A stretch of DNA of 37,868 bases from a virus. The stretch lies in IMG/VR virus record IMGVR_UViG_3300023176_002709, positions 1-37,868 of that record. One strand, given 5' to 3'. The notes beneath the pieces are model-generated. The model was not told the DNA's origin and searched no databases. It saw nothing but the letters and a program-made list of their open reading frames with translations. The translations under genes and the position numbers were made by a program. Positions 17,354 through 37,868 of this stretch are shown here, piece after piece; within the stretch, counting starts at the first letter, position 1, and every line of letters starts with the position of its first letter.

Positions 17354-20300
17354 TTACGGGGTGTTAGAAAGTTTTCTAATCGAACCATTATTTCTATAAC
17401 CAAAATCTCTTCTTTGGATTGTTGGGAAAGTTGACAATCCAGAGTCTACAACCAATCCAGTTACACCAATAGAAATTGGATTTGTTCTGGATGCATAGTT
17501 GTAAATTCTTCCCCAAGAGATGTTTCCGCCAGATGTAGTTGTTATTCCAACAACATTGCTGTTTGTATGAATATTGCAGATAATTTCAGCATCTGGACCA
17601 TTGTTTGTCTTAGAATTGACAATGTAAATGTTATCTAAGAATCTTGTTCCTATTCCAACAACGGAACTATCTTCACTGTTGACAGAAGTTACGCCAGTGC
17701 CAATTGTTGTATTATAGACAAGTATTGGATAACCTGCCTGCAAATCATTAGCATCAGCAGCATTTGCTCTGAAATTAATCTTCAGTGCAAGGGGATGTCC
17801 ACCTGTTCCTGTTGTTGTGGTTATTCCTGTAATAATTCCAGAGAATCCCTGAACATTTTCAATGGAACTAATAGTTTCCTTAGATGCTTTTGGAACTTCT
17901 ATTATAATTTGTGGTGGGTTAGACGTGGTGTATCCGAAACCAGCATTTGTAATATTGACAGAAACCACGCTACCATTCAAAATTGTTGCCGTTGCGGTGG
18001 CAGTTGTTCCAACACCAACACCAATAACTGATGGAGCAGAGAACTTAACTGGAACTGATGTTGTCGAATATCCAAGACCAGGATTGGTGATTGTTATCGA
18101 CGAAACTGTTCCAGCAGCAGAAACGGTTGATGTAAATGCTGCAGATACTGGGTCAACAGAATCTATAATCAACGCTCCAAAAGTATCAATTGTAATTCCA
18201 TAATTATTTTCTTCATAGTTGAAGAATTGTGCATCGTCTACAAAGATTTCAGATGTTGTAGTGTTTAAATCGCCAATAATTCTTGCTGTTGGATAAATTC
18301 TTGGTTCTAAAGAATCTCTTGTCTTGTAGATGATGTCACCTTTCACATATTTGTCAACTTTTTGTTTGGTCCACTCAATTGGTTTGAATGTAACTTCATC
18401 AATTCCATTACCAACGTAAATGTCAGTTTCAATGCTATCGGAACCGAAAATATCAGCAATACTTCTGCTACGGAGCTGACTTACTGTAGACTCATAAAGC
18501 GGATGCTTATTGACAAAAACATCATCTCCAATCTTAACTGTTTCATTGATATCAACCAATTCAATATCTACACCATCTTGACCGAGGTAGAAGAAAATAT
18601 CAACTTTGTCGGACTCTTTTGGTGCTTCAGTGAATGTAAATGACGTACCGCCATTAAACTGATATGCAACATTAGGTTGCTGCAGAACACCATTAACGAA
18701 TATCAGGAGAAGAGAATCCAAGTCAATTGCGCCAGATAAAGGATTATCTGGATCAATTTCGAAACTCAATAGTTGACCAACGTAGTAAAGTGGGAATCTT
18801 TTTCTGCTTCCATTTTGTAAGAACTGTATGCTATCAATATAATCAGTTTCGCCAAATGACCATGCCGAGAATCTGTCATTGAATGTTTCTACAACTTCGA
18901 GTTGGAATTCTGATACTGGTTGCGCGAAACCAAGAGCAGTAACAAGACCAACTGGTTTGAATACATCACCAACTTGGAAAGAATATCCAGGTCTGGTTAT
19001 TTCAAAAGATTCTACCAAGAACAGAGTGGAACCAATGCCAACATTGGTGCTGGCAGATCCAATCTTAACATTCATAAGAAGATTTTCTCCAGTATCAGTT
19101 GTTGGTCCAATACCAAGTCTAGAAACACCAACTATCTCTAAGTTTTCATAAATTGGCTCAGGTATTCTGATGTATGGATCGACATATCCACTGCCACCAT
19201 CATTAATTACAAATCCAAGAGTACCACCTGCCCCAACAACTGCGGAGATACTTGCTTCAGTTCCAGTGTGATTTGCATCAGTTACAGCAATAGAAACGGG
19301 CTCTCTATATCCAGAACCAATGTTGAGACTATAATGTGGGTATACACTACCAAGACCAACATAGTAATGAGTTATTGTGCTTGGTCCAACATTAATATTC
19401 AATTTTGTGGACGATAGAATATTAACAATATCAAGGGAACGGTCATGGTCTGGGAAGATTGTTGTTGTAATTCCAGAACCACTTGGGCAAGTAAATGCCA
19501 AACCGACGAGTTTAACTCTATCACCACCTTCCAATCCATGGGCAGATGAAGTTTCGACTTCAAGAATACCAGAAATCTTATTGTATGCTGCTGTTGTAAT
19601 TGCTACTGGAGTTCCAACAGTGTGAATGCCGACAATATTGGTAATTGTTCCACTTCCATCCAATTCTGCTCTTACTTTAGCACCAACAAGTGGAGCATAT
19701 CCAAGACCAGGTGTAGAACCAAGAGAAACAATCATTCCTCCTCTTGGAAGTTGATTTTGATTTATATCAAAATCAGACTTAATGTATGTTCCATCTGTAG
19801 ACGTAATTCCAGTAAATACGATACTGGAAATACCAGCAACATTATCATTTTCAAACTCATAGTTATTTCCAGTATTGTTGATTGTTGTTGGTGTCTGGAA
19901 TACCCCATTGATAAAGACAATTCCATTTCCAACTTCAACACCAGATGTATTGATACCCTGTGCAGTCATTGTATAAGTTCTTCCAATACCAGTAAATTGG
20001 TCTGAAATATCATCAAATAATACATTGGTATCATAGTTTGATCTTAAGAAAGTTCTTCCTGAATATTGTGATCTCACATAGGGAAGATTGCTTTCGTTTC
20101 TTCTTGCTCTTGTATTTCCTCTAGGAGCTTCAGCAAAGAATACTTTATTCTTGACGATATTGATAGCACCTCTGTAAATCTGGACAGTTGAACCATCATT
20201 GTGAGATGTTGCTGTGCTTCCAAAAGATGCTCTTACAACAGATACTGTTGGGAATGTTGAAGCAGTACCTGCCAAGATGACTCCATTGATAGGTCCTAAC

Positions 20301-23300
20301 AATGCTCCACCAACATTAGAACTTACACCAACCTCAACAACCTTCATATATTCATTATCAATCTTAAGAACATCAGTTGGTTGTATTGAAGAAATTCCAC
20401 TCAAGTTGAAAGTTGAAATACCAGAAGCGATACTTCCACTATTATAATCGAGACTATGAGTGATTGGTGTAAATGTTAGAGGTTGCTGTACAATACCATC
20501 CAAGGAAATAATCGTTTTGGACAGTTTATTTGTAATCTCAAGTTCATGAGCATTGCCAAGACCAACGTCTGTAAAGGTTACTGCAATTCCAAGGTTGGCG
20601 TATGATTTACGAGTTGCCAACTTAAATGTATCTGGAGTAATTACAATCGGATATACTCTTTCAGGGAGTCTATCTGTAACAACACCAAGATAGTTGGCAG
20701 TTGCTCCAATACCCATAGCACTTTCGCCAACTCCAACGAAAGTTGCTTTTGGCGTGTAAATTAACTCTTCTCCAGTGTTGAAGAAGTGATTATTAATTGT
20801 GAATAGTCCAGTGCCAAGGTCAACTGTGTTGGAATTTGATGGTGTAAATGTCTTTGTATAGATTGGAGTTCCTTGATATGTAAGATTGAAGTTATCTTTG
20901 TTTCCTCTTGTTCCGTTTATTCCATCATATGATGTGAGGAAAATTTCTTGATTAACTGAACCATACTGAAGATCTAAAGGAACATTATCAAAGTCACTCT
21001 CAGTATAGAATACCTCGTTAAATGATTGTAACTCTACATCATATCCAGCATCTGGATAGAAATTGAGATAGAATTCATTTCCAGAAATTTGACCACCAAA
21101 AGTTCCAAGACCAGATGTATTATTTGAAGGAGCAAATAAACCTGGTGTTACGGTAACATCGATACCATTGAATAGGGAATTTACTTGATGAATCGCTGAA
21201 CTTGAACCTGAAGAAACTCTTACGATCGAAGATGCTGATGTAATTGAATTAATATCAAATGTTCCAACTCTGATAGAATCAGTTCCAAATCCAACAACGG
21301 ATTCAAGTCTGGCACTCTTCTCAGTTCCTTCTGGTTGTCCACTAAGTAGGAATCTATACGTTCCAATACCAGAAGTTGTTGCGGCAAATCCTACAATATT
21401 AGCACGAATATCCAAATCACCAAAATCTTTATTATTCAGAATGCTAAATGAAACAATTCCAGAAACAGAATCATAAATTGATGTTACAATGCCAATTGTA
21501 GAGGAATTGTAATTTTGAGTTTCATTATCGAAGTAGTATTCGCTGACATAAACATTTGTTCCATCAAAATCTAAAGCAGCTTCAACATAATTCAATTCCT
21601 TTGTGGTGGTATTTAAAATTTCAATGTTGGCAAACAACCCATTAAAGTTATTATCGGCAAAATCAATAATAGTGCTAGTAGATCCATTGGTTGCAATGCC
21701 AGTAACGTTGGTTCCTGTTAAAGTGACAGATCCAATAGTTTCTGTCCCTATTCCAGAAACAGATGTTATAAAGGTTTTCTTCAGAATCTTAATGTCATGG
21801 TCCCTGTTAAATGGATCAGATGGAGTGAAGATTAATGTTTTTCTTCCAAGATAATCAACATCGGCACTAAAATCACCAAGTCTTTCATTTGTATATGAAG
21901 TTGATTTTTCAAAAAGGAATGAATCAATTGTTGTTGTCTCAAGAACCAATTCGGTCAGTTGAGAATCTGAAGTATCAACATCTACGACTTGAATTAGATA
22001 TTTTACATGAGTATCAATGGTATCAATTTCTTCAATCTCAATAAACAAGTCTTGCGACAGTTTGTTGGAGAACTTATCACTAATATCATCATGGATAAGA
22101 ACTCTATTGGTCTTACATTGCGTATAATCTGTAAGTTTTTTGTTTTGGAGCTTTAAGAACTTAGATTGGTCTGGATTTGTCTTGGTGTCAATATCAACAA
22201 CGTTATCAAAATTATTAATAGTATCAACTCTTTTTTCTTCAATAACATCAAGAACAACCAAAGAGGTAGTAGATCCTGCTAATCCAACTGAACTGCTTGC
22301 AAACGATGTGATTCCAACATCAGCAAAGTTCTTCATTCCGATTGGGTGGAGAACACCATTTACAGTATCAGAGAATTCATCCCAAGTTATTGGACTTTGG
22401 ATTGAATATGAAAGATTTTGATAGTAATCGTTATTTGGGGTAACCTGATAATCTTCACTAATCTTTCCTGTATTATTCCTCCAACCAATTTCTTGTCTTG
22501 AAGCATAATCGATGATAAATTTAGATCTATTTTCGGTGATTGCTGTTACATCGGCAATAACTCCACTAACCCTTCCTTTAACTCTACAACCAACACTCAG
22601 TTGATATCTACCCTTTACTTTAATGAAATCGTCACGAACAGCAGAAACAAACAAGTCTGCCTCAAAGAATCCTGTTCCAAGATCTACAAATAACTGCTCA
22701 TTCTGAGAGAAGACACCTCTTCTCTTAACAACATTAATTTCTGGGTAGTTATTTCTATTGACAATAGTTGCATATCCAGACTGGAAAGTCTTAGCAATTC
22801 CTGGATTTGTTGATAGTCCAATTCCAGCATCATCCACAAGAGCAAATGTAAGTTGAGCAGGGTTGCTATTTACATAAGATTGTACTTTGAAGAATTTGTA
22901 ATCATAATCACTGGAATTGTATCCATCTCCAGTTGGACTTACAAGTTCGATACCTTCAACAAAAATTTCATCACCATCAGCAAACTGTGGTGTTACAAAT
23001 CCAAGGATTGGAGTTTTTAATGTGCAGGTTGCAACACCAGAACTTCCCGTAATCATTGAAGAAATTCCAACGCCGTTTGAATTATTGACGGCAAGAATCT
23101 TATGAGGTTCAGAATCTAAACCATAGATTGGTGCTATTTGTGTAATTTCTGATATGGAACCATTTGGAGCACTCGCTACTAAACTTGTTGTGTCTACAAC
23201 TTCTTTAGTTGTATCGTTTATGAGAATAAGATCTGGACTGTTTAGATATCTGAGACCACCAGATACGATATCAATTTCATCAATAGTGTCTAAGTTGTCA

Positions 23301-26300
23301 ATTCTGATAATTGGAGGTATAGAACCTTCTGGTCTGAGAGTCTTATCTGCTGGATAATCATAACCAATGTCTTTAATTCTAACTTTATTCAACTTGCCAA
23401 TGGAAGTTGAAATTGCTACGATGTTGGCGTCAATACCATCTTGAGATGTAACATCAACAAACGTAGGAATTTTCTTATAATTGAATCCTTTAGACAGTAT
23501 TCTAACCTTTCCAATAGATCCATTAATTGCTGTAGATGACTTTGTAGAATATTCCAGTACGTCGGTCTGGTCTTTTACATATGAAAGAACGCTTGGTAAT
23601 CTTGATGGAGAAATGGTGAAAGTATTAGTAGAGATTCCAAATACGCTGTAGTTTCCATTATATTCACTATCGACATAATTAATTTCGGAATAATTACGAA
23701 CATCTGTATCGGCAGTGCTAATATATCCAGATTTTTCGAGAGTATAATAGAGTTTTGATGGGATGTTTTTAGAATATTTGACTTCAAGATACGAAGTCCC
23801 AAATCCAACACTACCAACACCAACAACGTTGAATTGATTTGTATCGAATGAACTTACAAATTCATCTTTAAATTCTCTGTCTTTGAAGATTTTTAAATTA
23901 TATCCTACCAGAGATGAATTTCCAAGGTTGAATCTAAGGTCAGAATTTCTAACAACATCAATCTTTGGATTAACTAAAGCAAAGGTATGTGTAGTATCAC
24001 CAGTACCAACAATGTTTACTACACTCTCAGTGTTTGGATTTGTTTCATATAAAGTCTCTGCCAGTCTGAAAGTATTACTTGTATCCTTGATAACGTAATA
24101 TGCTCCTGTGGTTAAACCTGAAGCAACCTCAGAACTAGTATAATGAATTTTATCTCCAGTCTTAAATCCGTGATTATTAATTGTAATCGTATTTGTTAAG
24201 GTATTGATTTGTGAAGAGTTGATACCGACTGGATTTACCAATATCTTCTTCTCTTCTAAATCAATAGCAAGAGATAGTGCAGCAGTTGTACCAAGACCTA
24301 CAATAGTATTTGGTTTAACTGTAAGTTTGATTTGGTCTCCTCTTTGAAGACCGTGTGAGGACCCTGTGCTGACCACTGTGGTCACTCTATCAACGTTTCC
24401 GAGCAATTGTGTATGATTGGACTTAAAGAGGTACTCAGAGTTGTCAGAACCGTCACCGTAGAAGAATAAACCTTCACTACTGGTAGTTAAACCAACTTGA
24501 GTTGCCAGTCCAACATAATTTTTACCCTTGTTTATAATATAAACGTCTGATGTTAGTGTAACTACATCAGGAATCTGGAATGTGTTCAATCCACTCTCAT
24601 CATTACCAACGATGAGTGAATCAATTCCAGTAACATCAGACTTTGTAAATGTTACTCTTTGACCAGTTTTGAATGGATGATTTGGTACGTAGATACTTCT
24701 ATGTGGAACTGAAACTGTATCAGTAACATTTCCAATCGTAAAGGTTTTAGATACCGCTCCACCAACGGTTGTTCCAATACCAACAGAATCTTTGGCGTTG
24801 AAATAGACCAAATCATTACGCTTTGAGGTGAACTCTCTGGTTCTTGCTGGTATTGTAATTCTATCGCTTATGATATTAAAATCACTTCCGAGAGTATGAG
24901 CGACTCCAGAACTTCCGTATCTCTTAACTCTCAGGACACCATTGTTGTAATTATTCAGAATTCTTACAATTTCATTTCCAACAAGAGCACTATTTCCAAT
25001 AGAAACCTGAGGTACAGTAGTAATGAAAATATCTTCGATTATTCCGCCAGGTTGAGGTCCATAGACACTCATTGTTGCTGCCAGACCAACAGTCTGAGTT
25101 CCAAATCCAACTGTCTTAGATCCAGAAAGATTTAATACTGACGTTGATAATCCACTTACTAAAACAGTATCCTTATCATTAAATTCAAATCCAGAACGGT
25201 AGTATGCTGATATTTGTCTACCATCATCCCAAACAAATACGGCATTTTCATATCTGTCCAAAGATGTTTGGATAGAATTAATATCCTTTCCAATCAGTTC
25301 TGATACTTCTGCTCTAAATCCAGTTCCACCAGTTTCGGTAGAATCAAAGTTAACCGATTCACCAATTCTATACCCATCTCCACCATCAACTACAAGAGTG
25401 TCATCAACCTCACCTTTAGTAATCGAATCAATTACTGTTATTTGATCGTAGTCTTCGTAAGACTCAATGAAGAAATCATAATTAGCATTTGGATCATTTA
25501 CTTTATATGGGAAAGTATTTCTGACAAGATTTGAGTTATTAAAGTCAAATGACTGGTCTAATGTAGTATTTTCTTCAATAAATTCTGATTTGAATGTATT
25601 TCCAATGAAATATGGATATACTGGTTCCAGTTTGTTTGATGTAGTGCTTGTCGTTACTCCAGCAAAGTAAGCATAGACTCCATTAGGAAACTCTGGAGTT
25701 TTGCAGAATCTTCCATTATGTTCATCAAGATCTCCATTGTTGACATATTCATAATCTTCAATGAAGAATCCTGAGGAGAACGATGATGGTCTGTCCTCTA
25801 CATTTGAGGTATTGACGGTATAACCTGGGTTGATGATTCTAATTCCAGACTGGATATTGCTTCCATCAATATAACCATAAGGACCATAGATTGGATTTCC
25901 ATCATATGCCCATCCAATAATTGGTGAGTGTGAAGAACCAACATCATCATAATTTGCTGCTAAGTCTTCGGAATATCCATACATTCCATATGCTACAGCA
26001 TCTTCAGTCTCATTCTGATACAAATTTGAGAATATTTTAGTGCTTCTGGTCTTTGCATACTCTCCAAATCTCTTAGCGTCGTTAACGGTAAGTTCTCTGA
26101 CTCTTGTATCAAAGATGGCATCAGAACCTCTTGCCTTAACGTATAACGTGGTTGAGTTTGGATTGTATCCAATTCCAGAATTAATTACAATAACATCATC
26201 AATTTTTCCATCTACAAGAACTGGTCTTAGAATAGCACCACTTCCAAAACCATCATCTTCAGCAATAATTTCTGGGATTGAATAATATTCAGAACCCTTG

Positions 26301-29300
26301 CTCAGTACTTGAACATCGATGATTCTTCCATTCGAAATAATCGCATTTAACTGAGCATTCTTACCGTTCTTTACGGTTATCGTTGGTTTTTTATGTAAGT
26401 TGAGGATATTGGAACCATATCCACTTCCCTTTTCATACAAATATGCTCCAGTTATTTCTCCGGTGACGATTGGAGTTATGTTGAACTGATTAGTTAAAGT
26501 TGAAGCAAAAGAAACATTGGATAGAACTTGAATTTCTGGATACTGGAATACCTGATATCCAGTGCCAGTTGACTTCAAGTCAACATACTTAGATCTTGTT
26601 AAATCCGTGGTTTCTGTTCCAGCAATACCTACGTTTATCAGTTTGAAGGTATCTGAATCAACTTTACTGATTGAATATCTATTTGCTGTGGACAGACCAG
26701 AGACTACAGTACCATCTGTAGAGTAGGTTACAATCTCACCAGTCTCAAATCCGTGATTTTCAAATCTAAACGTGTTATACTCTGTAGAGATGCCAGATGA
26801 TGCTACTCTGAGTTTTTTATGCTGATATCCAGAACCTGGAGATTTGACTTTGATTTTCTTCAAAGTCTTCTTCGACAATGTTCTAAATTTATGAATACCA
26901 CTAATATCTGTTGTAGTAGAGAATCCAATTGTATTGATTCCAGAAATAGCGTCAAAATCCGTGTTGAAAAGTTTAATAGTTGAAGTATTAACTACTCTAA
27001 CTACATATTCATCACCACTGACAAGAGTGCCAGTCTTTGCGTTTGTAATATCTCCAAATACACTAATCGGCAATGGATCATTACCATTTTGGTTGTAGAT
27101 GACGTGCTGTCCATTAATCAGGTTGTGATTTGATGAGAATGTAATTGTCTCATCTGTAATATCAATTCCGCCACCCAATAAAAGAGCACGACTATCAAAC
27201 TCAAGTTCTCTAAATCTATCACCAACGATTGGTTCAAGAATGCATCCAGAACCATTTCCGCCAACCAAAGAAAGAGAAAAGACTTCATTAATATCAAAAT
27301 CTTGAGGGTCAACAAAAACTTCTTTTACACTACCAGTAATAATTGGCTCAACAAGAGCAGTTGTTCCAGACCCTGCCGATATGGTGATTTGTGGAGGATT
27401 TATAACATCAAAATCCTTTCCACCATTCAATACATTAAATTCTGATAATGGACCATAATAAACTTTGTTTCTTGATTCTGGACTTGATATTTCAACACCA
27501 TCTACCAATAAACCAACATTTCCAACAATTCTCTTATTATTCTTTGGAGTAGACAGTTCTTGGTTTAATGGGAACTTTCTTAAAATTTTACTTGGGGAAA
27601 GAATTCTATCTTCGTGACGCTTTAATGTAAATGTATGTGTGCCCGAATTCGTATTTGGACCAAATCTAACTGAGTTTGCCCCAGAGAGAAGTGACTTTGA
27701 AACATATAATCTTATTTGATTCAGTGCTACTACGGTAACATAATAGGTTTCTCCTGAAGTCAATCCAGGCAATGGATTGGTAGCAGTATATACAACTCTA
27801 TCTCCATCAATAAATTTAACATTTGATGGGAACTTAATGATAGAATAGGACTGCAATACGGAATTATAGTCACCAAGATTAGCATCCAATCCATTAGGAA
27901 TGGAAGATTCTATAATTTCATCTACAATTTCGTAAGACGGAAGTGAGTTAGAAGCAACATATCCATCTGTACTTTCGTCATTTGTATAGACGTTTAATAC
28001 TTCAGCAATGTAACTATCATTTCCAAGAAGAAGAGGTACACCAGCACTCTTAGATTTCTTAATTTTTCTTCTGATATCGTACTTGACTGTTGGATTTGGT
28101 GTAAATCCAGTGAGATTGCCAAGAACAACTTGCTTTAGTGAAGCATTAATATTATTGACAGTAGCATTTGCCGATACTACTGTATTGCTATTGGAGACTA
28201 GAACTTCAACAGTATCGCCAACTTTGAGACTAGACTTATCAACATTGGAGAGTAAAGTGAATGTTGAACCAACAATTGAAGATACTTTATATCTTGCCCT
28301 AGTATTGTAAATCCAAGAGTTTGCAAAGATTTCCTTATGAGTCCTATCTTCTTCAGGATTCTGAATTACTTCACCAATACTTCTTACTGTAACTTCCTCA
28401 TCTTCATCAATAAGTGAAACATCTCCTATTGGTGAAAGATTTGAAAGGACACCAGTGATGCGGAGATCAACTCTGTTGTTGATGTCACCATTTTCATATC
28501 CGTAGATTGTTTCATTGAAACGGACATTATCACCAACAGAAATTTCTGCGGTGACTCCACTACATCCAAAGAACTGATTGATGCTCTTTGATGTGTAGGT
28601 AATCGTATTCGTCCCAGAAATAAGAGTTCCAGATTCGGGGAAACCAATAGTTGAATCAACTGAAATAATAGAAGATCCAACAGGAATCGTTTCCAGTGAT
28701 TTTGAGTTTCCAGGAATACTAAAAATTCCCTCAACTAAGTCTCTATCGTTATATCCGACAAACAATCCAAGTTTATAATATGTTCTTTCCCCTCTACTAA
28801 AGATTTCAACATCAGATACCGAAGCATTAGTATTTGTATCTGTTGATTTAAATACCGTTTGACCTTCAAGGTTAAAAGGATTTCCAGAAATATTTTCTGC
28901 TACAATAACTTCTCTTCTGACATAGTTTGCAGAAGATGGTTTAATTAATCTTCCTTCTAAATCAATTACTTTTGCTTCTACTCCATACAGTACTTTAAAG
29001 AGAATCTTGACAGATTCTGAAATACCTTTTGACTGATAGAAATCACGAGCGTGCTTGATGAAATTGCCTACATCTAAATCTGAGACAAAATCTAGACTTT
29101 CTAATCCAGGAGTAAATGCTGCCTTAAGTTTTCTATAAAACTCTTGTAAAAATAATACACTCAGGTTGGTTACTGTATCACCTTGAGTGTGAGATGCTGC
29201 AGTTGATGTTGAAAAAATAGCATTTTGAGAATTGATATTTCCAATAAAACTAGTAATACCTACACTATATCCAGTGATTCCACAAAAACCACGGACACAT

Positions 29301-29653
29301 CCATTAAAAGTAGTATCAGTTTTTGACGTATAGGTGATAATTTCATCACCAATTTTCAATAAACCATATTCACTTGGAAATCCCTTTGTAGAAGAGACTG
29401 TGATAGACGATGAACTATCTGTAATATCAGAAGAGAGTGATACTTCACCAACAACTACTTCTGGAACTAAGTTATCTACCCTCAAATAACGGTCAAGGTT
29501 ATCAATAATATCAACATTAGCACCTTGATATTCTTGAGAAATATAATATTGTCTAAAAAATTCTACTGCTTTTGGAAAATCTGCAACTAAAAACTCTGGA
29601 AGTTGGCTCTCAATTATTTTATTGAGTTGCACTCTCTTCTCAAAATGCGACAT
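17354..29653 (-). CDS. 7: gp7-like baseplate wedge protein, hugely expanded (4,099 aa)
   Basis: The gene lies between gp6 and gp8, as does T4 gene 7. Its N-terminus matches the C-terminal third of T4 gp7: an FLVADFPKAVEFFRQYYIS segment near residue 20, and RDFYQSKGISESVKILFKVL with YGVEAKV near 205-235 (T4 YDFYSTKGIEASYKFLFKVLY). A VLHPIGM stretch near 2,430 may match T4 FVHPVGFG, implying about 2,200 residues inserted between the two. T4 gp7 is only 1,032 aa. The bulk is Thr/Ser/Gly/Asn-rich beta modules. A YHYH-type domain covers about 1,240-1,330 (GWAYDGNPIYGPYGY, DEHNGRFCKTPEFPNGVYAY, YPYFIG). Repeats of the form H-(G)-F-x-T-G-(D/E)-x-(V/I)-x-Y occur near 843, 966, 1,828 and 2,954. NxGxGY repeats occur near the C-terminus. 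An AGAGAGGAAAT Shine-Dalgarno precedes the ATG. Confidence 0.9.
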   Translation of the reverse strand: MSHFEKRVQLNKIIESQLPEFLVADFPKAVEFFRQYYISQEYQGANVDIIDNLDRYLRVDNLVPEVVVGEVSLSSDITDSSSSITVSSTKGFPSEYGLLKIGDEIITYTSKTDTTFNGCVRGFCGITGYSVGITSFIGNINSQNAIFSTSTAASHTQGDTVTNLSVLFLQEFYRKLKAAFTPGLESLDFVSDLDVGNFIKHARDFYQSKGISESVKILFKVLYGVEAKVIDLEGRLIKPSSANYVRREVIVAENISGNPFNLEGQTVFKSTDTNTNASVSDVEIFSRGERTYYKLGLFVGYNDRDLVEGIFSIPGNSKSLETIPVGSSIISVDSTIGFPESGTLISGTNTITYTSKSINQFFGCSGVTAEISVGDNVRFNETIYGYENGDINNRVDLRITGVLSNLSPIGDVSLIDEDEEVTVRSIGEVIQNPEEDRTHKEIFANSWIYNTRARYKVSSIVGSTFTLLSNVDKSSLKVGDTVEVLVSNSNTVVSANATVNNINASLKQVVLGNLTGFTPNPTVKYDIRRKIKKSKSAGVPLLLGNDSYIAEVLNVYTNDESTDGYVASNSLPSYEIVDEIIESSIPNGLDANLGDYNSVLQSYSIIKFPSNVKFIDGDRVVYTATNPLPGLTSGETYYVTVVALNQIRLYVSKSLLSGANSVRFGPNTNSGTHTFTLKRHEDRILSPSKILRKFPLNQELSTPKNNKRIVGNVGLLVDGVEISSPESRNKVYYGPLSEFNVLNGGKDFDVINPPQITISAGSGTTALVEPIITGSVKEVFVDPQDFDINEVFSLSLVGGNGSGCILEPIVGDRFRELEFDSRALLLGGGIDITDETITFSSNHNLINGQHVIYNQNGNDPLPISVFGDITNAKTGTLVSGDEYVVRVVNTSTIKLFNTDFDAISGINTIGFSTTTDISGIHKFRTLSKKTLKKIKVKSPGSGYQHKKLRVASSGISTEYNTFRFENHGFETGEIVTYSTDGTVVSGLSTANRYSISKVDSDTFKLINVGIAGTETTDLTRSKYVDLKSTGTGYQVFQYPEIQVLSNVSFASTLTNQFNITPIVTGEITGAYLYEKGSGYGSNILNLHKKPTITVKNGKNAQLNAIISNGRIIDVQVLSKGSEYYSIPEIIAEDDGFGSGAILRPVLVDGKIDDVIVINSGIGYNPNSTTLYVKARGSDAIFDTRVRELTVNDAKRFGEYAKTRSTKIFSNLYQNETEDAVAYGMYGYSEDLAANYDDVGSSHSPIIGWAYDGNPIYGPYGYIDGSNIQSGIRIINPGYTVNTSNVEDRPSSFSSGFFIEDYEYVNNGDLDEHNGRFCKTPEFPNGVYAYFAGVTTSTTSNKLEPVYPYFIGNTFKSEFIEENTTLDQSFDFNNSNLVRNTFPYKVNDPNANYDFFIESYEDYDQITVIDSITKGEVDDTLVVDGGDGYRIGESVNFDSTETGGTGFRAEVSELIGKDINSIQTSLDRYENAVFVWDDGRQISAYYRSGFEFNDKDTVLVSGLSTSVLNLSGSKTVGFGTQTVGLAATMSVYGPQPGGIIEDIFITTVPQVSIGNSALVGNEIVRILNNYNNGVLRVKRYGSSGVAHTLGSDFNIISDRITIPARTREFTSKRNDLVYFNAKDSVGIGTTVGGAVSKTFTIGNVTDTVSVPHRSIYVPNHPFKTGQRVTFTKSDVTGIDSLIVGNDESGLNTFQIPDVVTLTSDVYIINKGKNYVGLATQVGLTTSSEGLFFYGDGSDNSEYLFKSNHTQLLGNVDRVTTVVSTGSSHGLQRGDQIKLTVKPNTIVGLGTTAALSLAIDLEEKKILVNPVGINSSQINTLTNTITINNHGFKTGDKIHYTSSEVASGLTTGAYYVIKDTSNTFRLAETLYETNPNTESVVNIVGTGDTTHTFALVNPKIDVVRNSDLRFNLGNSSLVGYNLKIFKDREFKDEFVSSFDTNQFNVVGVGSVGFGTSYLEVKYSKNIPSKLYYTLEKSGYISTADTDVRNYSEINYVDSEYNGNYSVFGISTNTFTISPSRLPSVLSYVKDQTDVLEYSTKSSTAINGSIGKVRILSKGFNYKKIPTFVDVTSQDGIDANIVAISTSIGKLNKVRIKDIGYDYPADKTLRPEGSIPPIIRIDNLDTIDEIDIVSGGLRYLNSPDLILINDTTKEVVDTTSLVASAPNGSISEITQIAPIYGLDSEPHKILAVNNSNGVGISSMITGSSGVATCTLKTPILGFVTPQFADGDEIFVEGIELVSPTGDGYNSSDYDYKFFKVQSYVNSNPAQLTFALVDDAGIGLSTNPGIAKTFQSGYATIVNRNNYPEINVVKRRGVFSQNEQLFVDLGTGFFEADLFVSAVRDDFIKVKGRYQLSVGCRVKGRVSGVIADVTAITENRSKFIIDYASRQEIGWRNNTGKISEDYQVTPNNDYYQNLSYSIQSPITWDEFSDTVNGVLHPIGMKNFADVGITSFASSSVGLAGSTTSLVVLDVIEEKRVDTINNFDNVVDIDTKTNPDQSKFLKLQNKKLTDYTQCKTNRVLIHDDISDKFSNKLSQDLFIEIEEIDTIDTHVKYLIQVVDVDTSDSQLTELVLETTTIDSFLFEKSTSYTNERLGDFSADVDYLGRKTLIFTPSDPFNRDHDIKILKKTFITSVSGIGTETIGSVTLTGTNVTGIATNGSTSTIIDFADNNFNGLFANIEILNTTTKELNYVEAALDFDGTNVYVSEYYFDNETQNYNSSTIGIVTSIYDSVSGIVSFSILNNKDFGDLDIRANIVGFAATTSGIGTYRFLLSGQPEGTEKSARLESVVGFGTDSIRVGTFDINSITSASSIVRVSSGSSSAIHQVNSLFNGIDVTVTPGLFAPSNNTSGLGTFGGQISGNEFYLNFYPDAGYDVELQSFNEVFYTESDFDNVPLDLQYGSVNQEIFLTSYDGINGTRGNKDNFNLTYQGTPIYTKTFTPSNSNTVDLGTGLFTINNHFFNTGEELIYTPKATFVGVGESAMGIGATANYLGVVTDRLPERVYPIVITPDTFKLATRKSYANLGIAVTFTDVGLGNAHELEITNKLSKTIISLDGIVQQPLTFTPITHSLDYNSGSIASGISTFNLSGISSIQPTDVLKIDNEYMKVVEVGVSSNVGGALLGPINGVILAGTASTFPTVSVVRASFGSTATSHNDGSTVQIYRGAINIVKNKVFFAEAPRGNTRARRNESNLPYVRSQYSGRTFLRSNYDTNVLFDDISDQFTGIGRTYTMTAQGINTSGVEVGNGIVFINGVFQTPTTINNTGNNYEFENDNVAGISSIVFTGITSTDGTYIKSDFDINQNQLPRGGMIVSLGSTPGLGYAPLVGAKVRAELDGSGTITNIVGIHTVGTPVAITTAAYNKISGILEVETSSAHGLEGGDRVKLVGLAFTCPSGSGITTTIFPDHDRSLDIVNILSSTKLNINVGPSTITHYYVGLGSVYPHYSLNIGSGYREPVSIAVTDANHTGTEASISAVVGAGGTLGFVINDGGSGYVDPYIRIPEPIYENLEIVGVSRLGIGPTTDTGENLLMNVKIGSASTNVGIGSTLFLVESFEITRPGYSFQVGDVFKPVGLVTALGFAQPVSEFQLEVVETFNDRFSAWSFGETDYIDSIQFLQNGSRKRFPLYYVGQLLSFEIDPDNPLSGAIDLDSLLLIFVNGVLQQPNVAYQFNGGTSFTFTEAPKESDKVDIFFYLGQDGVDIELVDINETVKIGDDVFVNKHPLYESTVSQLRSRSIADIFGSDSIETDIYVGNGIDEVTFKPIEWTKQKVDKYVKGDIIYKTRDSLEPRIYPTARIIGDLNTTTSEIFVDDAQFFNYEENNYGITIDTFGALIIDSVDPVSAAFTSTVSAAGTVSSITITNPGLGYSTTSVPVKFSAPSVIGVGVGTTATATATILNGSVVSVNITNAGFGYTTSNPPQIIIEVPKASKETISSIENVQGFSGIITGITTTTGTGGHPLALKINFRANAADANDLQAGYPILVYNTTIGTGVTSVNSEDSSVVGIGTRFLDNIYIVNSKTNNGPDAEIICNIHTNSNVVGITTTSGGNISWGRIYNYASRTNPISIGVTGLVVDSGLSTFPTIQRRDFGYRNNGSIRKLSNTP

Positions 29654-29656
29654 ATT

Positions 29657-31582
29657 TTATTTCCTCTCTAATGCTCCGTTAGAATAACTTGAAGTATAGT
29701 AATCTCGTGTAAAGGTGACTCCAGAAATATCCTCACCAGATGCGATTACATCTTTTACCATATTTATTGTACTATTCGAAACATCAAAACTCAGATACAA
29801 ATCTTTCAAACCAACTACATCATTTGAATCTGGGAATGCCTGAATTTCAATAATATTATTATCAGCAACTGTAGATGCGATATTAACCGTATTGACCAAG
29901 ATTTCACCTTTGGTATAATCAACAGTTCCTACACTCTTTAAGACAACCTGAAGTTGGTCTTTTTCGTTTCTCTTGAATACTGAAAGAACACCCTTTCCAC
30001 TTCCATCAAGATTACCATCAGCATTCTTGTTTGGAACATCAGTGAAGTAAACAGTGTCATTTGAACCTGTAATTGTAAATCCAGTGCTCTTAATATTATA
30101 ACCAGCAGGATTAATATGGAAACGATTTCCAAAGCAAAGTTCATACTGAGCAAACTGGTTAACCAGAACCTTCATATCTCTTCTAATTCTAACTTTCGTA
30201 ATGTTAGAAGTGATAGCATTATCAACTCTATCAATTAACTGAAGAACCTTACTGTACTTAAATCTTCCACCAAAACGATTCATATCAACATCTCTTGCAT
30301 AAATGCTAAGAGAATTAATGATATTTGTTCTCAAATCACTTGCGTTCGAAATACGGGAACTATTGTAGTAAATCGCAGAATCAATCTCAACATAAAGAAT
30401 TTTAAGATCAACAATTTTCTGATTGATTCCGGCAATGGAGTATTGCTTAATGTTATTCAGAATGTTTTGCTTATCGAAGTCGGAAATATATGTTCCGTTC
30501 TTTGGTTTAATACTAATTTGAACGGTTCCATATTGTGGTGGAGATAACTCTTCCCCACCAACAACAGAAACAGACTCTGTATTAGGATAGATTGACTGTA
30601 TAATCGCTTCGTAGTCCCTTGAGGTGACTGCTCTATACTGTGCTGCGTAGAGTCTAGGGGCAAAGTACTTGACTGAGGAAACACTCTCTATATCGCCGCC
30701 ATTCATTGCCTTCTGAATGGTTGTCACGGGGACAGATGCTGAAGGAATGACTCTAATATCACTCTGATCAACAAAGTTTCCTTGGAAATCAAAAGCAGAA
30801 GGTCCATTTCCTGCCTCACCATCAGTCACAATATAACGAACGGTGATGACAGAATTATTTTCTAACTGCTTACCAAAGTAACCATCACCAAACAGGAGTT
30901 CGTATCTTTCATCCTGAACTTCCTGAATCAAATAAATCTCTGAATTCTTATTCAGATTTAAGATATTATCAACTAACTTATACTCTCTTCCAAGTCCAGT
31001 ATCGTTTATACCCTTGACATAAACACGAATTGTAGAAGAATCAATGTTTGGATTATCAAGAATGAATCTCTGGTCAGATAAGTTATTAACTAAGAACTGT
31101 CTGACAAGAAGTGAACCTTGATAGATTTCAATTGGATTATCTGCTGTTCCAAATTGTGCTACACCTGAGCGAACAAGTGCAGTAACGTCTTCTGGAATTG
31201 AGAAGCGATATGACGTATTATCGAACGATCCTACACATACCAGACCCGCTCTAAGGGTGATGAAATCACTTGCAGTAGTGGTAGGGACACCAAAGGTTAC
31301 GTATGCCTTAGCGGCACTCCTGGAGCGTGGTACGTAACCAATGTTTCTTGCCAAAGAAACAACATTTTCCCTAACTGTTGCTGAATCTAAGAACGATTCA
31401 TTGACAACTAGGTTGGCATTGAAAGAGTTAATATACGTATTATACGCAAGAGTATCGATTAAGACAGAGAAATTAGATCCTTCAAAGTCAAAATCCGTAA
31501 AATTTGAATTTGTACGGAGATATGACTTAATCTCTGCCTTAATTTGATCGAAATCTAGGTTAGTAAATTGAGTAAAAGGCAT
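29657..31582 (-). CDS. 6: gp6-like baseplate wedge protein
   Basis: At 641 aa this equals T4 gp6 (660 aa) in length and aligns along its whole span. The N-terminal block FTDFDFEGSNFSVLIDTLAY, then NTYINSFNANLVVNESFLDS, RNIGYVP and SRSAAKAYV, matches T4 (FLDYDFEGSRLNVLCDLLAYNT, YESFM, DNGYLPTSKSAAQ). The central AVTSRDYEAIIQSIYPN and VQISIKPKNGTYIS match the T4 ATDYDTF and FIAAKPKSGLYLT stretches. gp6 is a baseplate J-type protein that forms the continuous ring holding six wedges together and drives the hexagon-to-star change. It begins three bases after gp25 and ends three bases before gp7. Confidence 0.96.
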   Translation of the reverse strand: MPFTQFTNLDFDQIKAEIKSYLRTNSNFTDFDFEGSNFSVLIDTLAYNTYINSFNANLVVNESFLDSATVRENVVSLARNIGYVPRSRSAAKAYVTFGVPTTTASDFITLRAGLVCVGSFDNTSYRFSIPEDVTALVRSGVAQFGTADNPIEIYQGSLLVRQFLVNNLSDQRFILDNPNIDSSTIRVYVKGINDTGLGREYKLVDNILNLNKNSEIYLIQEVQDERYELLFGDGYFGKQLENNSVITVRYIVTDGEAGNGPSAFDFQGNFVDQSDIRVIPSASVPVTTIQKAMNGGDIESVSSVKYFAPRLYAAQYRAVTSRDYEAIIQSIYPNTESVSVVGGEELSPPQYGTVQISIKPKNGTYISDFDKQNILNNIKQYSIAGINQKIVDLKILYVEIDSAIYYNSSRISNASDLRTNIINSLSIYARDVDMNRFGGRFKYSKVLQLIDRVDNAITSNITKVRIRRDMKVLVNQFAQYELCFGNRFHINPAGYNIKSTGFTITGSNDTVYFTDVPNKNADGNLDGSGKGVLSVFKRNEKDQLQVVLKSVGTVDYTKGEILVNTVNIASTVADNNIIEIQAFPDSNDVVGLKDLYLSFDVSNSTINMVKDVIASGEDISGVTFTRDYYTSSYSNGALERK

Positions 31583-31585
31583 TGT

Positions 31586-31987
31586 TTATCGTGTTGCCTC
31601 TAATAAGAACGAAAATTGCTGTGTCGGAATCTGTTGTCCAACAATATCGAAGATAATATTGACATCAAAACTGTTTTCATCAGGTCTTGGATCGACCTGA
31701 ACCCTCAAATTTGCCACTCTATCTTCATAAAAATTGACTGTATTACGAATTTGGTCTTCAATTACAGTCGCAGTACCATAATCGACGAATTCAAACAAAC
31801 TTTTACGAATATTAGTCCCTAAAGTTGAGTTAAAAAACCGCTCTGTAGGGATAGTTTCAACTAAATTTCGTACTGCTCTCTTAATCGCACGCTCATTTGT
31901 CAAGACAGGAAGGTCTTTTGTCACAGGATGTGGGTCAAAAGAGAAACTAATATCCTTAAATGCTTTTGAAGTCCTCTGAACTGCCAT
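31586..31987 (-). CDS. 25: gp25-like baseplate wedge protein
   Basis: The 133-aa product belongs to the GPW/gp25 family and is nearly the same length as T4 gp25 (132 aa). It shows the family layout: a short N-terminal strand segment (SFDPHPVTKDL), the helix ERAIKRAVRNLVETIPTERF with FNSTLGTNIRKSLFE (T4 SIKNSLLGIITTRKGSRPFD, then FGCDLSDQLFEN), and the strands NFYEDRVANLRVQVDPRPDE. gp25 is a sheath-like wedge core protein that nucleates sheath assembly. It is the first gene after a late promoter (32011-32018) and is followed by gp6 after three bases, as expected for a wedge operon. Confidence 0.95.
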   Translation of the reverse strand: MAVQRTSKAFKDISFSFDPHPVTKDLPVLTNERAIKRAVRNLVETIPTERFFNSTLGTNIRKSLFEFVDYGTATVIEDQIRNTVNFYEDRVANLRVQVDPRPDENSFDVNIIFDIVGQQIPTQQFSFLLEATR

Positions 31988-32407: not shown

Positions 32408-32557
32408 TTAACCTTTACCTTGCCCCCGATAGGGTTTACGTGCTTTATTGCGAGAAGACGCGGCATACTTCGTACCACCCCCAGCTCCTTGACGAGACTT
32501 TTTAGGAGGTCCAGGAATATAAGAGCTCTTATTCAGACCGACTTTTGCTTTTGCCAT
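32408..32557 (-). CDS. Small very basic protein, 49 aa
   Basis: The frame runs from ATG at 32557 to TAA at 32410-32408. It encodes MAKAKVGLNKSSYIPGPPKK, then SRQGAGGGTKYAASS and RNKARKPYRGQGKG. It has about 14 Lys/Arg and no acidic residues, so it could bind nucleic acid or be a flexible RNA- or DNA-associated peptide. Small basic genes of this kind are common in T4-like cyanophages. It starts two bases after the stop of the 54-aa gene and ends just before a strong terminator, so it is the last gene of that transcript. Confidence 0.75.
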   Translation of the reverse strand: MAKAKVGLNKSSYIPGPPKKSRQGAGGGTKYAASSRNKARKPYRGQGKG

Positions 32558-33550: not shown

Positions 33551-33748
33551 CTAGTCCTTACGAACCTCTGTAATTATAATACAGTTTCCTTCGACTTCCA
33601 TATTAACCTCAGTGCCCTCATACCACCCATAATCATTCAGTATCCACTCAGGGATAGTCACATAATACTCCCCAGTTATTGGATCGACCTCTACAGTCGT
33701 TATATTTTCTCCGGGATTTTTTTGCATTTCGTGTAATTGTGTTTCCAT
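33551..33748 (-). CDS. AbrB/MazE-like small DNA-binding protein
   Basis: The 65-aa sequence contains DPITGEYYVTIPEWILNDYG, then WYEGTEVNMEVEGNCIIITE, matching the swapped-hairpin AbrB/SpoVT/MazE pattern: (I/V)T-I-P, a short helix, G-x-x-x-x-V, and a final I-I-I-T-E strand. Proteins of this fold are transition-state regulators or antitoxins. No toxin-like ORF is adjacent on either side, so a free-standing phage transcription regulator is more likely. It lies 71 bases upstream of the glycosyltransferase gene, whose promoter starts just after its stop. Its own promoter is unclear; several A/T-rich TATA-like boxes lie in 33749-33800. Confidence 0.7.
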   Translation of the reverse strand: METQLHEMQKNPGENITTVEVDPITGEYYVTIPEWILNDYGWYEGTEVNMEVEGNCIIITEVRKD

Positions 33749-36284: not shown

Positions 36285-36294
36285 AACTGGCACA

Positions 36295-36420
36295 TCAGTA
36301 GTCGGTGTCCCCGTTGATGTATGCTTCAACGTCGAAGCGGTCATCCTGCATCTCAGGAATGTCGAAGATCTCAGCGGGCATGTCGTTGATCTCAGAGAAG
36401 AGGTCGGTGTCGAAATCCAT
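36295..36420 (-). CDS. Very acidic 41-aa protein
   Basis: The start at 36420 is fixed by the conserved leader. The protein (MDFDTDLFSEINDMPAEIFD, then IPEMQDDRFDVEAYINGDTD and Tyr) has 14 Asp/Glu in 41 residues, one Arg and no Lys. I do not recognise it. Strong acidity can indicate a DNA-mimic or inhibitor, or a short regulatory peptide, but nothing in the sequence proves this. It has its own promoter and 3' hairpin and lies immediately upstream of the MutH-like gene. Confidence 0.65.
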   Translation of the reverse strand: MDFDTDLFSEINDMPAEIFDIPEMQDDRFDVEAYINGDTDY

Positions 36421-36790: not shown

Positions 36791-36835
36791 GGGGGCAATT
36801 ACAACCCCCTGTGTGCCACTTTCTTACTGGCACAC
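36791..36835 (-). terminator. Tandem hairpins at the end of the 80-aa gene
   Basis: The inverted repeat GTGTGCCA/TGGCACAC (36811-36818 and 36828-36835) has the gene's TAA stop codon inside its nine-base loop. It is followed by a second stem, GGGGG/CCCCC (36791-36795 and 36805-36809). There is no T-run. Confidence 0.5.
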
Positions 36836-37066
36836 CTCATACACTCCACGGCGGGCGGTTTTGCGAACCATACCCGAATCCTTAGCACGGCGCACCCCCC
36901 AGCGAACGCTTGTGCGCTCCGCTTTGCTATCTGCCCCCAGGGTGTTGTAAAGTTCGCAGAGTGTGATATACTCCCGCCCTTGGTTCACCTGGGCACGAAT
37001 CAGAACCTGGGCAGCGTAATCAAACGCCTTCAGGAAATCACCAGAATCGGAGGAGGAGAAACCCAT
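36824..37066 (-). CDS. Small possible winged-helix protein, 80 aa
   Basis: The frame starts MGFSSSDSGDFLKAFDYAAQ (ATG at 37066). A helix with VLIRAQVNQGREYITLCELY is followed by SVRWGVRRAKDSGMVRKTAR and RGVYEV. A helix, a basic helix ending G-M-V-x-x-T-x-R and a closing (R)GVYEV strand suggest a winged helix-turn-helix DNA-binding domain, but I cannot assign a family. A regulator is plausible because it stands first in the cassette array. Its promoter keeps only part of the consensus leader, and its stop codon sits in the loop of a hairpin. Confidence 0.65.
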   Translation of the reverse strand: MGFSSSDSGDFLKAFDYAAQVLIRAQVNQGREYITLCELYNTLGADSKAERTSVRWGVRRAKDSGMVRKTARRGVYEVCQ

Positions 37067-37100: not shown

Positions 37101-37113
37101 CCAGACACCCCCT

Positions 37114-37149
37114 GTGTGCCACCAGTGGACACCGCACGAACTGGCACAC
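37114..37149. repeat. GTGTGCCA/TGGCACAC inverted repeat
   Basis: Perfect 8-bp arms (37114-37121 and 37142-37149) flank 20 bases. They are identical to the arms at the end of the 80-aa gene. Confidence 0.7.
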
Positions 37150-37152
37150 CAA

Positions 37153-37267: not shown

Positions 37268-37320
37268 ATTCTCAACAGTGAATCCTTATTGAGAATCAAT
37301 AAAGACTTATTGTTGAGAAT
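37268..37320. repeat. Cluster of three TTGAGAAT sites with a 10-bp inverted repeat
   Basis: ATTCTCAACA (37268-37277) and TGTTGAGAAT (37311-37320) are perfect inverted repeats. A third TTGAGAAT lies at 37289-37296, inside the hairpin TTATTG-agaat-CAATAA (37286-37302). The cluster lies just upstream of the candidate RNA promoter and downstream of the 51-aa gene, so it could be an operator or a terminator-like structure. Confidence 0.45.
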
Positions 37321-37343
37321 GTGCCAATTCACAAACTGGCACA
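37320..37343. repeat. TGTGCCA/TGGCACA inverted repeat after the 51-aa gene
   Basis: Seven-base arms (37320-37326 and 37337-37343) flank ten bases, directly after the TAG stop of the 51-aa gene. It is another copy of the gene-end element seen elsewhere in this region. Confidence 0.6.
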
Positions 37344-37499
37344 CTACCAGAGGTCATCTTCCTCTTTGATGCTAACGTGAATACGTTCGTCGCCTTCGAG
37401 TCCTAGGAGTTCTTTCCAGTTAAAATCTTCTAGGTCTAAGTCTTCATAACACTCTACATCGAGTGTAACACATACTCTACGCTTTGTGTGTGTATACAT
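37344..37499 (-). CDS. Small acidic protein, 51 aa
   Basis: The frame runs from ATG at 37499 to TAG at 37346-37344. It encodes MYTHTKRRVCVTLDVECYED, then LDLEDFNWKELLGLEGDERI and HVSIKEEDDLW. The DFNWKELLGLEGDE pattern, flanked by beta strands (VCVTLDV, IHVSIKE), is shared with small cyanophage proteins of unknown role. A sigma-70 promoter (TTGCGT, 17 bases, TATAAT) lies 29 bases before the ATG, and the gene-end inverted repeat follows the stop. These flanks support it as a real gene. Confidence 0.75.
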   Translation of the reverse strand: MYTHTKRRVCVTLDVECYEDLDLEDFNWKELLGLEGDERIHVSIKEEDDLW

Positions 37500-37528: not shown

Positions 37529-37557
37529 ATTATATCACGCATAATGTCTATACGCAA
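37529..37557 (-). promoter_or_regulatory. Sigma-70 promoter for the 51-aa gene
   Basis: TTGCGT (37557-37552), a 17-base spacer and TATAAT (37534-37529). The -10 directly abuts the TGA stop of the upstream 53-aa gene. Confidence 0.75.
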
Positions 37558-37696
37558 GCGCATCATAATCTTGCGTATTGTGTGCATAATCCTCGTCGAG
37601 ATCATGTGCATCTAGTTGTGCACGCTCATAATATGAGTCCTCGTCGAGATTATAATCGTTGGTGAATGTATAGTCGAGATCGTAATCGTCGTACAT
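37535..37696 (-). CDS. Asp/Tyr-rich acidic protein with LDE repeats, 53 aa
   Basis: The frame runs from ATG at 37696 to TGA at 37537-37535. It reads MYDDYDLDYTFTNDYNLDED, then SYYERAQLDAHDLDEDYAHN and TQDYDALAYRHYA, with about 16 Asp/Glu and ten Tyr. The (D/N)LD(E/Y) units at residues 6-9, 16-19 and 32-35 are encoded by three copies of the CTCGACGAG-type repeat, all in the same frame. It has no known family. A sigma-70-like promoter (TTGAAT, 17 bases, TACAAT) lies 28 bases upstream. Its acidity suggests a DNA-mimic or metal/protein-binding peptide; this is inference. Confidence 0.65.
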   Translation of the reverse strand: MYDDYDLDYTFTNDYNLDEDSYYERAQLDAHDLDEDYAHNTQDYDALAYRHYA

Positions 37697-37724
37697 AAAA
37701 CTCGTCGAGATTGAACGCTTTGTT

Positions 37725-37753
37725 ATTGTAGCATATATCTAGTCGAGATTCAA
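37725..37753 (-). promoter_or_regulatory. Sigma-70-like promoter for the 53-aa gene
   Basis: TTGAAT (37753-37748), a 17-base spacer and TACAAT (37730-37725). The spacer contains one CTCGACTAG repeat, placing a possible operator between -35 and -10. Confidence 0.65.
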
Positions 37754-37791
37754 CCTGTCTAGGTATAAGTCTCGTCGAGATTCATAACCAT

Positions 37792-37799
37792 TATTTATA
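37792..37799 (-). promoter_or_regulatory. Late-promoter-like TATAAATA in the repeat array
   Basis: An exact minus-strand TATAAATA lies between two repeat copies, with no sizeable ORF directly behind it (only a 10-codon frame). It may give late transcription of the 53- and 51-aa genes or be a by-product of the AT-rich repeat spacer. Confidence 0.4.
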
Positions 37800-37825
37800 A
37801 GTCTCGTCGAGATTCTGTGTGGGTT

Positions 37826-37852
37826 CTGTGACTTTTCGCCGCCCTGTGACTT
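37826..37852. repeat. Direct repeat CTGTGACTT
   Basis: CTGTGACTT occurs at 37826-37834 and 37844-37852, 18 bases apart, at the window edge. I see no gene in 37697-37868. Confidence 0.4.
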
Positions 37853-37868
37853 GACAGACTGCGCGTCT

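Follow-up and report, generated by a model that had tools for sequence, protein, structure and literature searches.

The OL and OR regions of phage lambda and the stoperators of mycobacteriophages are repeated operator sites of temperate phages, and the lambda origin and plasmid iterons are near-palindromic repeats placed partly inside a gene and beside AT-rich DNA. T4-like cyanophages are lytic and, to our knowledge, no repressor is known in them. Replication origins and early regulators are largely unmapped in marine and freshwater cyanophages. In T4, oriF and oriG are minimally defined by two parts, a promoter and an AT-rich unwinding element (PMC3016281). T4 oriE combines repeats (12-nt iterons), an early-type promoter and small genes (repEA/repEB) upstream of gene 6.

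We analyzed a virus record of 37,868 bases (the window, that is, the whole stretch of DNA), a genome fragment from a T4-like cyanophage, its genes matching T4-like cyanophage structural proteins. The closest relatives of its neck protein belong to a marine single-cell virus (64.6% identity), to P-SSM2 and P-SSM5 (64.4%) and to S-SRM01 (59.3%). Very large ORFs stand among the structural genes, one of 4099 aa (17354-29653) and one of 2451 aa (8405-15760). An array of short sites occupies the extreme end of the contig, some 5.6 kb upstream of gp25/gp6; we found no description of this locus in the literature searched. Judging from sequence comparison, this array most probably serves as a multi-site operator of a divergent control region, binding a control protein at a promoter and also dictating part of a tiny overlapping protein, and the region may be a replication origin as well. 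As in lambda OL/OR and the mycobacteriophage stoperators, one short site occurs in several copies around early-type promoters, with one copy inside a promoter; in contrast to those systems, the cyanophage sites are about 32 bp apart and run into a gene.

The array occupies positions 37592-37811. In agreement with the initial annotation, it holds seven copies of a 4-1-4 palindrome, five exact copies of CTCGACGAG on the minus strand and two with one arm altered, and the start-to-start distances are 48, 30, 31, 38, 32 and 32 bp, so that four of the six spacings indeed fall at 30-32 bp. Searching CTCGACGAG with one mismatch on both strands gave 12 matches in the window, compared with an expectation of 2.6 (sd 1.8; maximum 8 in 100 shuffles), and the rest of the window contains no exact copy and a single one-mismatch match, at 32488. 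The palindrome first described is therefore present, but the conserved unit is longer than 4-1-4: a matrix iterated from 185 non-coding sites gave AATCTCGAC(G/T)AGATT, a 15-bp near-palindrome of the form AATCTCGACGAGATT. Sites reach a density of 16.9 per kb in the upstream array versus 0.23 per kb elsewhere in the same contigs (about 74-fold). Coordinates of the array and of the neighbouring features are collected in the table.

Table. Features of the array region and of genes discussed in the text (window coordinates).
Feature	Position	Strand	Remark
P_L, first 18 bases, TTGACAGACTGCGCGTCT	37851..37868	+	-35 and part of spacer; cut by contig end
Site 7, CTCGACGAG	37803..37811	-	centre -111 from ATG
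Site 6, CTCGACGAG	37771..37779	-	centre -79 from ATG
P_R, predicted promoter of the small-gene pair	37725..37753	-	-35 TTGAAT 37748-37753; -10 TACAAT 37725-37730, TGC extension
Site 5, degenerate CTCGACTAG	37739..37747	-	operator position: 17-nt spacer between -35 and -10 of P_R
Site 4, CTCGACGAG	37701..37709	-	ribosome-binding position 5' of ATG; shortly past predicted P_R start
53-aa acidic small-protein gene	37535..37696	-	homologue of PSSM2_098 of P-SSM2
Site 3, degenerate CTCGACTAT	37670..37678	-	LDY of DLDY in 53-aa ORF
Site 2, CTCGACGAG	37640..37648	-	LDE of NLDE in 53-aa ORF; centre +52 from ATG
Site 1, CTCGACGAG	37592..37600	-	LDE of DLDE in 53-aa ORF; centre +100 from ATG
Second small gene, 51 aa, phrog_12516	37344..37499	-	directly 3' of 53-aa gene in 45/51 loci
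65-aa AbrB/MazE-like protein	33551..33748	-	candidate array binder
gp25	31586..31987	-	
gp6	29657..31582	-	

Relatives were found by a pattern scan of viral contigs and by a search with the neighbouring phrog_15364 protein, and both led to AT-rich contigs with 3 to 8 copies of the site in one cluster. The array is carried by the annotated isolates P-SSM2, S-SKS1, S-SRM01 and S-T4 and by many uncultured relatives. P-SSM2 has the usual form ATCTCGACTAGAT at 66029, 66065 and 66107 and a G form at 66158, and in S-SRM01 every exact copy of the genome falls within 85.6-91.0 kb, mostly between genes. Motif scans of Syn9, S-PM2, Syn19, P-SSM4, P-HM2, S-RSM4 and S-CAM7 found no cluster. In the S-T4 record MH412654 the array is seen twice, at 2748 and 174317 (171,569 bases apart), so that about 9.5 kb is probably present at both ends of this 181-kb record.

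As the first set of loci was partly selected by the motif, an independent set was selected solely by the peptide [YL]xxLAY[RK]HYA. It supplied 29 new non-redundant loci whose upstream DNA was long enough, and two or more upstream sites (median 4) were found in 28 of them, P_L in 26 and a strict P_R in 21; loci share ancestry, so such counts are not independent and some of the fixed spacing may be inherited. The refuting pattern named in the initial annotation, a kept peptide with the upstream sites gone, as expected if only the protein were selected, was thus rare, with one case (L279:2790-2960) where CGAGAT half-sites replace the upstream sites and the coding sites CTCGACGAG remain. In the first set, L075 likewise keeps the peptide gene without upstream sites: the array is lost and a TTGACA promoter adjoins the gene and reads straight into it. 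Judged by its recurrence in isolates and in independent, protein-selected loci, the array is a real DNA element, conserved across hundreds of related viruses from P-SSM2 to uncultured phages.

The arrangement of the sites around P_R is also conserved. The copy that had been placed in the spacer of the small-gene promoter is found there, and the P_R -10 is present in 45 of 46 relatives. Among 77 loci having this -10, a TTG -35 element at a spacing of 17-18 nt is found in 73, a site within the spacer, its centre 11-14 bp ahead of the -10, in 65 (43 of them at exactly 13) and a site 7-20 nt past the predicted start in 72; in P-SSM2, too, a site lies between TTGACA and TATAAT. Repressor sites in bacterial promoters are usually found at such positions. 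Relative to the ATG, the sites cluster at -7/-9, -42/-51, -74/-84 and -109/-115. Adjacent non-coding sites (n = 144 spacings) are 31-33 bp apart in 48 cases and 42-43 bp apart in 21, and the periodicity of these spacings near 10 bp exceeds that of all 2000 jittered sets. The helical phase of the coding copies is uninformative, because coding spacings must be multiples of three.

The near-palindromic sites are therefore multiple, enriched at a control region and fixed in positions that overlap promoter elements. Conservation at the DNA level, spacing by nearly whole helical turns and fixed promoter positions all support protein-binding sites, be they iterons, as proposed earlier, or operators. 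We consider it probable that the array is a cis-acting multi-site operator of a divergent control region in a clade of T4-like cyanophages, a reading for which conservation, motif, spacing, promoter geometry, codon constraint and protein constraint are all observed. A dimeric protein would bind the 15-bp sites and, as one of them lies in the P_R -35/-10 spacer and another just past the start, its binding should block or modulate P_R, a host-type promoter presumably driving the pair of small genes early. This control would be repression rather than activation. The upstream sites, about 32 bp apart, together with the in-frame sites of the 53-aa gene might serve cooperative binding or the wrapping of DNA on one face. 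Against this operator stand L279 and L075, which keep the gene without a standard upstream site, and the additional site clusters that 7 of 32 loci have among other small genes, 1.4-6.8 kb downstream. A simple operator model leaves these clusters unexplained: those inspected are intergenic, and no promoter comparable to P_R was found at them. Such clusters are seen in L213 (18165-18252 and 20908-21005), L077, L086 and L105, with recurring spacings of 23/39/38 and 24/24/34.

The position of the sites near gene starts also raised the question of control at the RNA level, with the sites acting as mRNA hairpins or as protein sites near ribosome-binding sites. The small gene does have a site at its ribosome-binding position in nearly all relatives, other sites stand just 5' of gene starts in S-SRM01, L077, L086 and L105, and AUCUC-GAC-GAGAU could pair with itself. 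However, one site is in the promoter spacer and at least two are farther upstream, outside the P_R transcript, the spacing tracks the DNA helix, and the common variant CTCGACTAG disrupts an inner pair of the stem and leaves the outer arms intact; we therefore regard RNA-level control as improbable. A known RNA was rejected, as an Rfam search of five array loci gave no match. Many copies of a single site in a lytic phage might also suggest a sponge that titrates a host DNA-binding protein, but the geometry of the P_R sites is too regular for a pure sink and none of the 80 genome contigs listed as having a two-site array is cyanobacterial, which makes this very unlikely. A host origin of the motif was rejected in the same way, since the listed genome contigs include no cyanobacterial array. 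A packaging site, also proposed initially, was dropped, as nothing in the analysis points to packaging.

Returning to the operator, a possible binder is the AbrB/MazE-like protein. It scores 18.5 bits against Pfam MazE_antitoxin, below the cut-off of 24.7 for the family, and its S-SRM01 homologue is annotated as a DNA-binding domain protein; its P-SSM2 counterpart is PSSM2_102. Nine loci extend 8.7 kb or more beyond the array on the downstream side, and each of them has the gene, at a distance of 3-9 kb, an association confounded by shared ancestry. In the phage collection, strong matches come from array carriers and, in addition, from Sf-CH8 and Sf-CH5; Sf-CH8, which has the gene without the array, breaks the link. 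This protein may thus be taken as a weak candidate for the array binder, a lead only.

Sf-CH8 is informative for the locus as a whole. It retains P_L, a P_R-like promoter, the small gene and the AbrB/MazE-like gene, without array and without LDE; its small gene ends in LAYKHYA (a small profile search gave E = 1e-4). The comparison is a single one, of weak homology backed by position; it suggests that the locus can do without the array and would be older or broader than it, and that the LDE residues accompany the array.

We then considered the gene into which the array runs. The first set contains homologues of the 53-aa protein at 67 loci, and a protein-based scan gave at least 460; the C-terminal end of the protein, DLDEDYARDxQDYxxLAYRHYA, is well conserved, with a pN/pS of 0.33 over the last 19 codons. 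By these signs the gene is real and under protein constraint. No family was found for the protein in Pfam or PHROGs and its predicted fold is of low confidence throughout (pLDDT 61), and the 51-aa protein of the second gene, whose fold is predicted with medium confidence, has no PDB match. As claimed at first, three copies of the palindrome are in frame within the 53-aa ORF, and the codons CTC-GAC-TAT of site 3 are retained in many relatives. In the LDE repeats, L is encoded by CTC in 68 of 80 cases versus 39 of 128 elsewhere in the same ORFs (Fisher p 6e-15), D by GAC in 73 of 80 versus 162 of 482 (p 2e-23) and E by GAG in 74 of 80 versus 38 of 87 (p 7e-12). Considering that the protein is constrained and that its LDE codons are held to CTC-GAC-GAG, selection acts on both DNA and protein: operator sites within the first gene would fix the LDE codons, making one stretch selected twice. 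The locus would then be a clean natural example of an array of binding sites that constrains the protein whose gene it overlaps.

It had also been suggested that an LDE peptide repeat expanded outwards from the protein, in agreement with the three in-frame copies within a real, conserved protein. On the contrary, the four upstream copies of the window are in several reading frames with stops, and among relatives the site before the ATG is kept although its frame shifts through all three frames (SRRVM, NLDELM, ISTRIM). The codon bias of LDE far exceeds that of the rest of the same ORF, following the DNA motif, upstream sites are retained in 28 of 29 independent loci, and Sf-CH8 has a homologous small protein with neither LDE nor array. 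The codon and frame tests therefore contradict an explanation by protein repeats only, which we find hardly credible.

The divergent promoter P_L may bear on replication. A full and strong P_L (TTGACA, 17 nt, TG-extended -10), upstream of the array and reading away from it, is present in 42 of 43 informative relatives. The DNA 20-220 bp downstream of it has 22-32% GC versus a contig mean of 41.7% and contains, in 31 of 33 loci, a 60-mer in the contig's top 10% for instability; tandem repeats of 9-23 bp are found there in 16 of 33 loci versus 4 of 264 random windows. P_L is thus followed by an AT-rich unwinding element and, as at T4 oriF and oriG, precedes some of the most unstable DNA of the contig; unlike those origins, the putative one here has a host-type -35/-10 promoter. 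An R-loop origin of the T4 kind with iterons, compatible with the operator, is possible rather than probable: the P_L transcript would form an R-loop in the AT-rich tract and prime the leading strand, and the array would bind an initiator or gate the origin. Cyanobacterial DnaA boxes, TTTTCCACA (PMC4674748), are found 16 times versus 0.28 expected, with strong clusters in some loci, but they occur in just 8 of 36 first-set and 3 of 29 independent loci and are absent from P-SSM2 and S-SRM01, so that the conserved clustered boxes of a DnaA-dependent origin are not seen across these loci. GC skew near the array falls to the lowest 6% of windows (approximately) or lower in four isolates, but comparable dips occur elsewhere in those genomes, and AT-rich tracts are common in intergenic DNA. 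Moreover, 17 of 51 loci have a GIY-YIG endonuclease gene oriented like P_L, so that P_L may simply be the promoter of this gene. These 17 loci, L096 among them, carry the homing-endonuclease gene about 0.5-1.2 kb upstream of the 53-aa gene, running leftward from the side of P_L; in S-SRM01, HNH genes flank the arrays.

The other described origins compare only in part. As in lambda ori and plasmid iterons, near-palindromic repeats lie on one helical face, partly in a gene and beside AT-rich DNA; here, however, the overlapped gene encodes an acidic protein with a low-confidence fold, and no initiator was recognised among the neighbour genes, in contrast to iteron-plasmid origins. T4 oriE shares the repeats, the early-type promoter and the small genes upstream of gene 6, but the T4 repeats that we found are 24-nt units in gene 5 coding DNA and the cyanophage array is mostly non-coding; in addition, the small genes and the late genes are opposed in direction in T4 and run the same way in the cyanophages. 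A direct homology with oriE was rejected, as its repeats are the gene 5 coding repeats and the motif differs. At 79.4 kb of T4 (L215:4927-5070), the clear direct repeats near oriE are these 24-nt units; should they correspond to the published 12-nt iterons, the iterons could have arisen as a side effect of protein repeats.

Operator and origin could also be combined: a clade of lytic T4-like cyanophages would then have a dedicated switch of repressor and operators, joined to an R-loop-type replication origin, and the array would dictate the acidic LDE repeats of the overlapping protein. This combination, in which regulatory DNA would have written protein sequence, is speculative and rather doubtful. 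The preferred operator, together with a possible origin, makes predictions for these phages: a binding protein, a controlled operon of small genes and possibly, in P-SSM2, an origin at around 66 kb.

Other repeats were noticed around the small genes. Just 3' of the small-gene pair, the window contains TTGAGAAT repeats with imperfect palindromes (37270-37320), and similar sequences were found left of P_L in relatives. The sequence GTGTGCCA...TGGCACAC recurs between small genes at 36285-36300, 36815-36840, 37110-37150 and 37320-37345, and may represent intergenic hairpins or terminators of one family.
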